Below, piece after piece: positions 11,485-28,173 of a DNA stretch of 64,000 nt; position 1 is the stretch's first letter; every line of letters starts with the position of its first letter. Both the position numbers and the translations under genes were made by a program. The notes beneath the pieces were generated by a model. It was not told the origin of the DNA and searched no databases. It saw only the letters and a list, made by a program, of their open reading frames with translations. Origin of the DNA: Terrihabitans soli (GTDB lineage: Bacteria; Pseudomonadota; Alphaproteobacteria; Rhizobiales; Methylopilaceae); assembly GCF_014191545.1 (NCBI RefSeq), contig NZ_AP023361.1, positions 1-64,000 on the forward strand, given 5' to 3'.

Positions 11485-13629
11485 TTATTCGGCGGCCGGA
11501 ACGGCTTCCGCGTTCTGCTTCTTTTCGAGGTCTTCGCCGGTTTCCTGATCGACGACCTTCATCGACAGACGCGTCTTGCCGCGATCGTCGAAGCCGAGCA
11601 GCTTGACCTTGACCTTGTCGCCTTCCTTGAGAACGTCCGAGACCTTCTCGATGCGGCGCGGAGCGATCTGCGACACGTGGACGAGACCATCGCGCGCGCC
11701 GAAGAAGTTCACGAAGGCGCCGAAATCGACGACCTTGACGACCGTGCCCTCATAGATCGTGCCGACTTCAGGTTCGGCAACGATCGAGTGGATCCAGTTG
11801 AGCGCGGCCTTGATGGCCTTGCCGTCGGCGGACGCCACCTTCACCGTGCCGTCGTCTTCGACATTGATCTTCGCGCCGGTCTTTTCGACGATTTCACGAA
11901 TGACCTTGCCGCCCGAACCGATCACGTCGCGGATCTTGTCGACCGGAATCTTGATCACTTCGATGCGCGGCGCGAATTCGCCGAGTTCCGGACGGGCTGC
12001 CGTGAGGGCCTTGCCCATTTCGCCGAGAATGTGATTGCGGCCGTCCTTCGCCTGCGCGAGGGCGACCTTCATGATGTTCTCGGTGATGCCGGCGATCTTG
12101 ATGTCCATCTGCAGGGCAGTGATGCCCTCGGTGGTGCCGGCGACCTTGAAGTCCATATCGCCGAGATGATCCTCGTCGCCGAGAATATCCGACAGAACCG
12201 CAAAGCGTTCGCCTTCGAGAATGAGGCCCATCGCAATACCCGCGACCGGACGCTTCAGCGGAACGCCCGCATCCATGGCCGCGAGCGAGGTACCGCAGAC
12301 CGTCGCCATCGAGGACGAGCCGTTCGACTCGGTGATCTCGGAGACAACGCGCAGCGTGTACGGGAACTCGTGGTTCGCCGGCAGCATCGGATGGATGGCG
12401 CGCCAGGCGAGCTTGCCGTGGCCGATTTCGCGGCGGCCGGGCGAACCCATGCGGCCGGTTTCACCGACCGAATAGGGCGGGAAATTATAGTGCAGCATGA
12501 AGGCTTCTTTATACGTGCCTTCGAGCGCGTCGATGAACTGCTCGTCTTCGCCGGTGCCGAGCGTCGCGACAACGAGCGCCTGGGTTTCACCGCGGGTGAA
12601 GAGCGAGGAGCCGTGCGTACGCGGCAGAACGCCGACTTCCGACAGGATCGGACGGACGGTTTTCACGTCGCGGCCGTCGATGCGGATGCCGTCGTCGAGA
12701 ATGTTCCAGCGCACGATCTTGGCTTCGAGATCGTGGAACACCGAACCGACTTTGGTGGCCGGCGGGGCCTTCTCGTCGCCTTCCGGCGAGAGCTTGGCGA
12801 TCACCGCTTCGCGAATTTTGCCGACCGCCGTATAGCGGTCCGTCTTCTTCTGGATCTTGTAGGCTTCGCGCAGATCCTTTTCGGCGATCTTGCGGATATC
12901 GGCCTCAAGTGCCGAATTGTCGACCGCTTCGATATCGCGCGGCTCCTTCGCCGCCTTTTCAGCGAGACGGACGATCGCGTCGATCACCGGCTGGAAGCCT
13001 TTGTGACCGAACATCACGGCGCCGAGCATGACCTCTTCGGAGAGCTCTTTGGCTTCCGACTCGACCATCAGCACCGCGTCCTGCGTACCGGCAACAACGA
13101 GATCGAGTTCCGATTCCTTGATCTTGTCGACCGTCGGGTTGAGCACGTACTCGCCATTGATATAGCCGACGCGGGCGCCACCGATCGGGCCCATGAACGG
13201 CACGCCCGAGATCGTCAGAGCCGCGGACGCCGCAACCATGCCGACGATGTCCGGATCGTTTTCGAGATCGTGCGAGAGAACGGTGACGACGACCTGCGTA
13301 TCGCAGCGCCAGCCGTCGACGAAGAGCGGACGGACCGGACGGTCGATCAGGCGGGAAACCAGCGTTTCCTTTTCGGTCGGACGGCCTTCACGCTTGAAGA
13401 AGCCGCCGGGAATGCGGCCCGCGGCGTAAAAGCGCTCCTGATAATTGACGGTCAGGGGCATGAAATCGACACCGGGCTTCGGCGCCTTGGCGGCGACGAC
13501 GGTGGCGAGAACTGTGGTGTCGCCATAGGTGGCGAGAACGGCGCCATGCGCCTGGCGGGCAACGCGGCCCGTTTCGAGGATGAGCTCGTGCCCACCCCAT
13601 TCAAAAACTTCACGATGAATATCGAACAT
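11485..13629 (-). CDS. pnp: Polynucleotide phosphorylase
   Basis: PNPase is a trimeric 3'-5' phosphorolytic exoribonuclease and degradosome component. The 714-residue protein has two RNase PH domains (the second with the FFRGETQA-like stretch [11 protein letters not shown]), an intervening helical domain, a KH domain ([21 protein letters not shown], about 560-580) and an S1 domain ([20 protein letters not shown]). The C-terminal tail is acidic. It is last in the rimP-to-pnp run. A terminator after rpsO suggests pnp also uses its own promoter in the 155-base gap. Confidence 0.97.
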
Positions 13630-13784
13630 ATGTGTCTTCTCACGGTCTGCGGCGATGCGGGCCGGACCACGAGCAGAATGGCGAGAAGCTCCTCAATGGA
13701 AGCGTCCGGCGATCCTGCCCGCGAACTCGATTGGCTCCGCATCACCTCGGATTGAGCGCGGCATCCTCATGAGGCCGCACCATG

Positions 13785-23638: not shown

Positions 23639-23682
23639 TGCTGGTCTCTATTCCAAAACGGGGAGAACAGAGAGGGCTCTCT

Positions 23683-23783
23683 CCCTCTCCCCGCCTGCGG
23701 GGAGAGGGTCGGGGTGAGGGGCAAGAATGCGCCCCTCATCCGGCGGCTTCGCCGCTCGACTTCTCCCCGCTTGCGGGGAGAAG
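23683..23783. repeat. Rhizobial-type intergenic palindromic repeat
   Basis: This is a compound palindromic element between trmB and metK. Stem 1 is CCCTCTCCCCGC (23683-23694) with GCGGGGAGAGGG (23697-23708). A middle CGGCG/CGCCG stem lies at about 23741-23754. Stem 2 is CTTCTCCCCGC (23760-23770) with GCGGGGAGAAG (23773-23783). The look (GCGGGGAGA arms, CCCTCATCC, CGGCTTCGCCG) matches dispersed intergenic mosaic elements common in Hyphomicrobiales; the exact family needs a search. The distal stem may also end metK transcription. Confidence 0.75.
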
Positions 23784-23787
23784 TGAA

Positions 23788-24966
<1,179 letters not shown>

Positions 24967-25061: not shown

Positions 25062-25460
25062 TTAATCGCCGTCGGCGAGGGACGAAACGAGGTCGACGAT
25101 CCGGCGGCGAACCTTCGGATCCTTGACCTTCATGAAGCTCTTGGTGAGCTGGAGGCCTTCGGACGTGGCGAGGAAGTCGGCGACATAATCGCCCTTCTTG
25201 TCGCTGAAGCCGGGGGGCAGAGCCTCACCCTGGGCATCTTCAAAGAAGTAAGACACCGGAACGCCGAGAACTTCCGACATCTGCTGGAGGCGCGAGGCGC
25301 CGATCCGGTTGGCGCCTTTCTCGTATTTCTGGATCTGCTGGAAGGTGATGCCGAGTGCGGTACCAAGCTTCTCCTGGCTCATCCCGATCAGTAGCCGGCG
25401 CATGCGGACACGCGCACCGACATGTTTGTCGATCGGATTGGGGGCCTTGGTCGCCATCAT
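25062..25460 (-). CDS. XRE-family HTH transcriptional regulator (in frame with lnt)
   Basis: The 132-residue protein from the ATG at 25460 has an N-terminal lambda-repressor-like [46 protein letters not shown] (about 15-70). A C-terminal tail follows, with a SLADGD end. It has its own AGGAG ribosome site 8 bases before the ATG, so it can be made as a separate protein, although the lnt frame also runs into it without a stop. Position between lnt and metK is conserved in rhizobia. Its target genes are unknown; metK next door is a candidate. Confidence 0.88.
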
Positions 25461-27176
25461 GAAATGAGCTCCTGCCTCGGCAAGCGCCGCGGTCGTTGTT
25501 ACCGACGTTCGTGGAAAAGCCGGTTGGGAAGGGGACATGCCCCAGAGATTGTTATGTGCGCCGCCCACACGCGCGGCAGAATGGTTGCCTGCAGGAGTAA
25601 AGTCAAACCCACCGGGGGTCAGGACGGCCCCTACAATAGTTGTAAAATACATTATTACGAGCAGCCAAAGTCCATAGGCAGAATACACCGTAGTCCTTGA
25701 AGCCACAGGTAAATTTGTGTCCAGAATGCCCTCGCCTGCAAGCGGCAGCGAGACTAAGGTTCTACCAAGAGCATCCACTACTCCGGAGATCCCGGTGTTC
25801 GCCGCGCGGATCAAAGGAAGGCCCTGTTCGAGGGCCCGGACGCGGGCCTGAGCGAAGTGCTGATGGGGGCCCGGCGTGTCGCCGAACCAGCCGTCATTGG
25901 TGACATTGAGAAGGGCATCGGGCCGCTCCTCGTCATAAACGCCGGTCGGGAAGATCGCCTCGTAACAGATCAGCGGCCCGAGCTTCAGGCCGGAGGGCAG
26001 CGTGATGTTGTGCGGCGCCTCGCCGGGCGTGAAACCGCCGGGCAGCCGCGTCAGCTGCCGGAAGCCGATGGCTTCGAGGACACTCTGAAACGGCAGGAAC
26101 TCACCGCCCGGGACGAGATGTACCTTGTCATAGGTCGCAAGGATCGACCCGTCGCTGCCGAGGGCGTGAATGGAATTGAAGACGCGCCTTTTGCCCGGCA
26201 CGCCGTCCTCGTCGAGCCGCGCCGCCCCGGTCAGAAGGATTTGGCCGTCGGACAGGAGTCCGCCGATCTGCGCCAGGGCGTCGGGCGTCCGGGCGAGGAA
26301 GAAGGGGAAGGCCGATTCCGGCCAGACCAGAATATCGGCCTCATCCAGCGTGCCGTTCTCGGATGTCTTCTGCTGCGAGAGCGAAAGATAGCGCGCCATG
26401 ATCTCGGGTTTGGCGGAGGCGCGGAATTTGTCGTCCTGCGGGATGTTCGGCTGCATGATGCGGACTTTGGTGTCCGTGAACTGCGTCTCGCCGCTGATGT
26501 AAAGACGCGCCAAGCCAAAGAGCGCGAGCGCCGCGAGGGCGCCGAGCGCAATCGCCGGCGGCCGGAAGCGCCAGATTCCCGTCTCGTCGTTGAGCGTTGC
26601 CGGCGCCGCAAAAACCGCCACCGCTATGATCGTCAGGCCCTCGACGCCGAAGACGCTCGCCGATTGCCCCATCCAGGACGTATTGGCGAGCGCATAGCCG
26701 AACTCGTTCCACGGAAAGCCGGTGAGGAGATGACCGCGCAGCCATTCGGACGCCGAGAGACCGAACGCGAAAGCGAGGATGCGGCCCGGACCGTTCGACC
26801 AGAACGCACGGGCCAGCGCAAAACCAAACCCGGTGAAGAGAGCAAGAAGCAGCGGCAGGCCGAGAACCGCAAACGGCATCATCCATTGATAGCTGTCGCC
26901 CGGCACGAAGAACGCCATGCCGATCCACCACAGACCCGCAAGGAAATAGCCGAAACCGAAGGAAAAGCCGGCAATGGCTGCATCGCGCAGACCGGCGCGG
27001 CCGCCGCCGGTGCCGTCGAGGATCAGCACAGCCGCGGGAAATGTCAGAAAAAGAACCGGCCAAAGATCGTAAGGCGGCATGGCCAACGCCGAGACCGCGC
27101 CGACGACTGCCGCCACGAGAACGCGCGCTTTGCCGTCGAGAAGGACCAGAAGGTGGACGGGCAAAGCAAGCCGCAA
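25062..27176 (-). CDS. lnt: Apolipoprotein N-acyltransferase, open frame continuing into the HTH gene
   Basis: Lnt N-acylates the N-terminal cysteine of lipoproteins in the inner membrane. About six membrane segments (about 10-200) precede a nitrilase-type domain with the triad Glu in VWPESAF (about 284), Lys in [12 protein letters not shown] (about 350) and Cys in CYEAIFP (about 404). A last membrane segment ([18 protein letters not shown]) follows. After it there is no stop codon: a 50-residue low-complexity stretch leads straight into the HTH protein, so the frame spans 704 codons. A TTG at 27176, 4 bases after the corC stop, is the likely start. DNA for the Lnt C-terminus is GC-poor compared with the rest. 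Confidence 0.8.
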
Positions 27177-27180
27177 GCGT

Positions 27181-28173
27181 CTATCCCGCTTCCGTCTCGC
27201 TGGGTGAGGATGTTGCGCCGGCTTTCGATGGCGCCGGCTCGGATGCGGCTTCCGGACGGCGGCGGATGCGCACGCGCTTGACGCGGCGCGGATCGGCATC
27301 GAGCACTTCGAAATCGAGATCGCCGGGACCGGCGAGAATTTCGCCGCGCACCGGCACACGGCCGGCCAGCATCACAAGCAGCCCGCCGATCGTATCGACC
27401 TCGTCGGCAAGATCCGACAGGTCGATGTCCGGCAATTTCGCAACGAGATCTTCGACCGGCGCGCGGCCCTGCGCGATAAGAGTGTTGTCGCGGCCGCGGC
27501 GGATCATCGGCCCTTCCGCTTCGTCGTGCTCGTCTTCGATATCGCCGACGACCATTTCGACGAGATTTTCGATCGTCACGAGACCGTCCGTGCCGCCGTG
27601 CTCGTCGATGACGAGCGCCATGTGAATATGGTTGGCCTGCATCTTGGCGAGAAGATCGCTCGCCGGCATGCTCGGCGGTACATACAGTGTTTCGCGCACG
27701 AGATCGGCATCGATGATCGACACGTCGAGATCAGGCTTGCCGAGATCCAGGCGCTTGGCCTTGGAGCGCGTGCGCGAGCGCTTGGTCAGATAGGACAGAA
27801 CGTCCTTGATATGGACCATGCCCTTCAGGTCGTCGATCGTCTCGCCATAGACGGGCAGGCGCGAATGACCGGCTTCCTCGAACTTGATCAGAAGTTCGTC
27901 GAGCGAGGTCTCGCCCGCGACCGCCACGATATCGGGCCGCTGAACCATGGCGTCGCTGACATGCTGTTCGCGCAGGCCGAGGATGTTTTTGAGCATCGCC
28001 CGCTCCTCGGGCGAAAAGTCCGGCGCATCTTCGCCGGCATCTTCAGCAAGAGCATCCTCGATTTCGTCGCGCAGGGTCGGCGCCTGCTTCAGGCCGAGCA
28101 TGATTTTCAGGCGGTCGAGAAGACCGCGATCTTCAGACGCCGTACTACTTCGGCTGGAATCGTCGTTGGCCAT
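27181..28173 (-). CDS. CorC/HlyC-type CBS-domain protein (TlyC family)
   Basis: A 330-residue cytosolic protein with two CBS domains (about 70-200: [15 protein letters not shown]..., [20 protein letters not shown]) and a C-terminal CorC_HlyC domain ([22 protein letters not shown]). The membrane DUF21 domain of CorB-like relatives is absent. It is called magnesium/cobalt efflux factor or hemolysin in databases; its real role in alphaproteobacteria is not settled. In the conserved ybeY-corC-lnt order, it ends 4 bases before the lnt start. The N-terminus is acidic, the C-terminus Pro/Ser-rich. Confidence 0.88.

Follow-up and report, generated by a model that had tools for sequence, protein, structure and literature searches.

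A single open reading frame joins lnt and a putative PraR/PhrR-type regulator gene in Terrihabitans soli, with the ancestral lnt stop read out of frame

The window analysed here is a stretch of 64,000 nucleotides from Terrihabitans soli (contig NZ_AP023361.1, positions 1 to 64,000), in which a stop-free frame of 704 codons runs on the minus strand from position 27,176 to position 25,062. It encodes, in order, a complete apolipoprotein N-acyltransferase (Lnt) and a complete XRE regulator, putatively of the PraR/PhrR type, with a spacer of about 50 residues between them. On the 704-residue product, the Pfam domains LNT_N, CN_hydrolase and HTH_3 were found at residues 26-188, 237-492 and 591-644, respectively. 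Translation of positions 25,062-27,176 confirmed the claim of a preliminary description that no stop lies between the end of Lnt and the HTH gene, while the junction, which it had called low-complexity, turned out to be ordinary mixed sequence and not clearly of low complexity. The TTG at 27,176, from which the 704 residues are counted, was the choice of that description; the mechanically called ORF is longer, beginning upstream at a GTG (27,359) and reaching 765 aa. Three relatives (L004, L005 and L008) have a start codon at the position of this TTG or two codons further on, which lends weak support to it, as their rows were trimmed to the BLAST match.

The Lnt part occupies positions 25,608-27,176 on the minus strand (residues 1-523) and ends where the Lnt proteins of two relatives of the same genus, G001 and G003, stop. 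Its identity as Lnt is given by the LNT_N and CN_hydrolase domains, by a score of 327.1 bits against the NCBIfam lnt equivalog TIGR00546 (cut-off 132.9) and by the alignment with 13 relatives. Residues E287, K351 and C404, which we take to be the catalytic Glu, Lys and Cys known from the Lnt of E. coli, were invariant across the 14 aligned sequences. Moreover, solved Lnt structures matched residues 16-510 of the window protein or nearly so. What has gone is the basic tail of the enzyme: at least one Lys or Arg appears within the last 12 residues in 187 of 189 relatives, and none in the 12 residues preceding the motif TTTGAC in the window. A search of the genome itself (one contig, 3.11 Mb) returned a single lnt-like match at E-values up to 0.001, so that, on this search, the only Lnt of the cell must come from the fused frame. 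Long frames were also found antisense to lnt (25,857-27,281, plus strand, 474 aa) and to pnp (11,677-13,755, plus strand, 692 aa), both probably by-products of G+C-rich coding sequence.

The regulator gene lies at positions 25,062-25,460 on the minus strand, starting from an ATG at 25,460 or 25,457 and ending at the stop codon in 25,062-25,064. It carries an HTH_3 domain and is 88-93% identical to the regulators found at the same place in three relatives of the genus (G001, G002 and G003). The ribosome-binding site and start codon attributed to it in the preliminary description are both present, with AGGAG at 25,469-25,473, eight bases 5′ of the two consecutive ATG codons, and G001, G002 and G003 have purine-rich sites at this position. 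The order lnt-HTH-metK, with the genes adjacent, was found in the window and in all five relatives compared (G001, G002, G003, G005 and G014). This place between lnt and metK, together with the XRE-type HTH_3 domain and the gene order known for praR and phrR, suggests that the regulator belongs to the PraR/PhrR group. The PraR operator, published as CAAC-N5-GTTG (PMC5527310), was not found in the window junction, where the best site has two mismatches. However, that absence does not settle membership in the group, as the motif is not universal in junctions: sites with one or no mismatch appeared in 37 of 189 junctions, compared with 19 of 189 in a control drawn from lnt coding sequence. Two further regulators of this type are encoded in the same genome (718,533-718,961 and 1,013,544-1,013,903), being 69% and 59% identical to that of the window, respectively. 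Beyond metK, the intergenic region shared with trmB holds a palindromic repeat (23,640-23,790) with 18 matches listed in the genome, some of which are the two strands of one copy, and sub-threshold Rfam hits to isrJ and sX13 were obtained in that region (23,669-23,832).

Comparison within the genus suggests where the two genes became joined. In G001 and G003, Lnt ends at the TGA inside the motif GTTTGAC. The corresponding TTTGAC of the window (25,602-25,607, minus strand) still holds this ancestral TGA, and is separated from a pair of conserved Val-Gly codons by a stretch of 21 bases (25,608-25,628) that includes a run of five C (25,614-25,618). Counted by eye, the distance is 22 bases in G001 and G003, and 21 bases in the window and G002; the computed phase of TTTGAC is accordingly 1 in the first pair and 0 in the second. 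With 21 bases, the motif is read as TTT GAC and the old stop falls out of frame. In G002, the shifted frame closes at a TAG after 14 codons (TTT GAC included), while in the window no stop is met before the regulator, and the frame continues for about 180 residues past the point at which G001 and G003 stop. In a tree of 11 proteins, the window pairs with G001 (support 99/99), followed by G002 and then by G003. As G001, the nearest to the window, has the normal stop, the phase common to the window and G002 can be explained only by two separate events, or by a single event that was later reversed.

The same bases also form part of a promoter-like element. Most of the -35-like hexamer TTGACT (25,601-25,606) lies within TTTGAC, and a -10-like CATTCT (25,578-25,583) follows it at 17 bases, with a counterpart CATTGT at 17 bases in G001 and G003 and at 18 bases in G002. 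Of the 189 relatives, 74 use the TGA of a TTGAC as the lnt stop and 115 have that stop outside such a motif, compared with only 4 of 190 regulator stops that fall in a TTGAC. Examples of the former include L005, L008, L077, L087 and L149, so the stop codon apparently has a double role in many relatives; in another of the 74 (L103), the motif is sited inside the start region of the regulator. Downstream of these 74 motifs, a hexamer matching CTATAT in at least four of six positions was found at a spacing of 17 bases in 14 cases and of 18 bases in 11, while each of the remaining spacings (8 to 39) gave 0-7 cases, spacing 8 excepted (11 cases). This enrichment of -10-like sequences at 17-18 bases is modest, and the CATTCT of the window itself matches CTATAT in only three of six positions. 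The spacing agrees with the published promoter consensus CTTGAC-N17-CTATAT of S. meliloti (PMC2873474). A generic promoter scan gave no site at its threshold in the junction, and the 73/154 obtained with a promoter matrix is not used as evidence, since the matrix was trained on the loci it was run on (the window and G002 excepted). Taken together, TTGAC and the -10-like bases are predicted to be the regulator's own promoter, with a -35 box overlapping the lnt stop. In R. leguminosarum, the praR promoter is described as autorepressed (PMC4149787), which implies a separate promoter there and fits with independent expression.

The spacer read as coding (25,461-25,607, minus strand, residues 524-572) does not look coding-like. 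Its G+C content at the three codon positions is.62/.62/.52, compared with.66/.48/.76 in lnt and.64/.39/.79 in the regulator. No unusual RNA fold was detected in it or in the junction (z -0.24), nor was any Rfam match found in the junction at E-values up to 1, and a simple scan revealed no terminator on the coding strand between the two genes. Furthermore, with the ancestral TGA no longer in frame, the 48 codons that follow TTTGAC were free of stops in 2,348 of 5,000 dinucleotide shuffles, so that an open spacer is in itself unremarkable. In the relatives, the regulator frame is open back past the lnt stop in 17 of 186 cases (the 189 without the three in which the lnt frame extends beyond the start of the regulator), and a single frame change at such a place could therefore fuse the genes. 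In the predicted structure, pLDDT was below 50 over residues 513-576, as in disordered stretches, and the regulator was modelled as helical; only these two features were used, as the model was weak overall (mean pLDDT 65.7, pTM 0.57) and poor in its nitrilase part, perhaps because of regulator-only rows mixed into the alignment.

To establish how widespread the joint is, a total of 223 loci were considered, of which 14 were set aside beforehand (two paralogues from the same genome, two same-genus repeats of the regulator and ten long neighbourhood pieces). From the 209 loci that were examined, seven dropped out for want of an adjacent pair or a complete Lnt end, and another 12 as duplicate junctions, so that 190 distinct junctions remained, that of the window among them. 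The Lnt and regulator matches lay in the same frame in 93 of them, and yet the window alone was fused. Likewise, among the matches listed in whole-genome searches of 61, 397, 4 and 385 genomes (overlapping sets), only the window spans both domains without a stop; in many of the genomes from the order and class, these matches place lnt and a regulator gene side by side. It should be noted that the relatives lack phylogenetic independence, having been chosen for their similarity to the window protein and, in part, for the length of their reported frames. Reported open-frame lengths had suggested fused relatives (G011, G030 and G051, for example); stops were found when their DNA was read directly, and these lengths were not used. 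The loci considered include 40 that were chosen deliberately, 32 of them from genomes for which the matches listed gave a frame of at least 605, and none was fused; one of them (L215) had no usable pair and two repeated loci already in the set. In L103, L110 and L199, the lnt frame overlaps the regulator start, although the genes are unfused. Thus, the comparison with relatives that the preliminary description had proposed showed the joint to be rare.

Considering these results, the lnt stop was probably lost through a small frame change at the tail of the gene and the spacer was open by chance, rather than through any need for a joined protein. The change would have hit the last lnt codons, 3′ of the final membrane helix, leaving the ancestral TGA within the -35-like box of the regulator, where it would be read out of frame, while the non-coding spacer happened to lack stops and to share the frame of the regulator. 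We infer promoter activity, expression and the fate of any fusion from the layout of the sequence. Of the products foreseen in the preliminary description (a fusion, a free HTH protein or both), the free regulator is well supported by this layout, namely by the start codon, the ribosome-binding site and the promoter-like -35 and -10 elements common to the same-genus relatives, and most likely its own promoter and ribosome-binding site would supply the regulator mainly as a free protein. The fusion follows from the lack of any stop, provided that the sequence is correct and that the lnt message extends into the regulator; ribosomes translating lnt on such a message would yield a fusion of Lnt, spacer and regulator, which trimming would turn into a longer Lnt. 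As the C terminus of Lnt presumably faces the cytoplasm, the fusion would place the regulator on that side of the membrane.

A sequencing or assembly error, in which a normal lnt stop is masked by a single miscalled base within the 21-base stretch, would remove the fusion altogether and is unlikely, though it is the main rival. The window is one base off G001 and G003 just before the expected stop, in a stretch with a five-C run, a kind of place where miscalls occur; another frame of the window runs straight into TGA at the expected place, and the remaining 189 distinct junctions are all unfused. Nevertheless, the same phase appears in the separate assembly of G002, and the genome is a single contig with 99.1% completeness. 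Moreover, when 32, 33 and 32 stretches of the window were compared with G001, G002 and G003, respectively, a second frameshift was not clearly seen. The comparison did flag stops in 6, 3 and 4 of these stretches and second-frame matches beside three of the 33; as ORFs were found at those places, the flags were interpreted as out-of-frame ORFs that overlap, or as reading beyond the end of a gene (rpsO being examined individually).

If the sequence is right, the fusion might have been selected, the regulator being tethered to the inner membrane through Lnt so that the maturation of envelope lipoproteins is coupled to PraR-type control of attachment and stress. Both domains are complete, lnt and a regulator gene adjoin each other in many genomes from the order and class among the matches listed, and the spacer is predicted to be unstructured, which would make a tether physically possible. 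However, this reading is very unlikely, as the fused frame is restricted to one genome, the spacer is not coding-like and the regulator retains its own start and promoter-like site; no sign of a selected or functional fusion was found among the 190 junctions. A fuller version is a long shot, in which free and Lnt-tethered forms of a PraR-type regulator coexist, with lnt translation setting the membrane pool and thereby linking lipoprotein maturation to attachment and stress control, and which would have arisen when the old stop was kept in the promoter while the frame slid past it. Hardly credible is slippage of the polymerase or the ribosome at the end of lnt, by which part of the product would end at the old TGA and normal Lnt would still be made. 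An intact TGA does lie one frame away, just downstream of the five-C run, but five C are short for slippage, no classical slippery heptamer was seen by eye in the right phase and the RNA fold is not unusual.

Loss of the stop by a small frame change, with a spacer open by chance, is therefore preferred, and it offers a view at sequence level of the merging of two adjacent genes into a single frame, in which the stop was not mutated but left behind, apparently because the same bases serve as the promoter box of the next gene. The presence of lnt stops within TTGAC in many relatives may also explain why the junction is conserved in DNA and loose in reading frame. If the regulator were indeed membrane-tethered, lipoprotein maturation would be tied to gene control. 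No paper bearing on an Lnt-HTH fusion or on a stop-loss fusion of lnt was found in the open-access literature searched.

Compared with known systems, the Lnt part resembles characterized apolipoprotein N-acyltransferases over its full length (residues 16-510 exactly in PDB 5n6h, 5vrg and 5xhq), and differs from them in the extension of the frame beyond the usual end. The locus as a whole resembles the Sinorhizobium phrR/lnt and the praR loci, as a regulator of similar type adjoins lnt in named loci of Ensifer, Rhizobium, Mesorhizobium and Azorhizobium, as it does in an annotated record of S. meliloti. Here, actA of Sinorhizobium is assumed to be lnt, and the loci compared are taken to be phrR and praR themselves (praR in the case of Rhizobium leguminosarum and Azorhizobium caulinodans). 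The window departs from these loci in lacking the published PraR site at the junction and, above all, in that lnt and the regulator, which occupy separate frames there, share one frame here. Fusion of co-directional neighbours by loss of a stop is a known class of event, to which the present case belongs, with the difference that the lost stop was not mutated away here and survives inside a promoter-like element.
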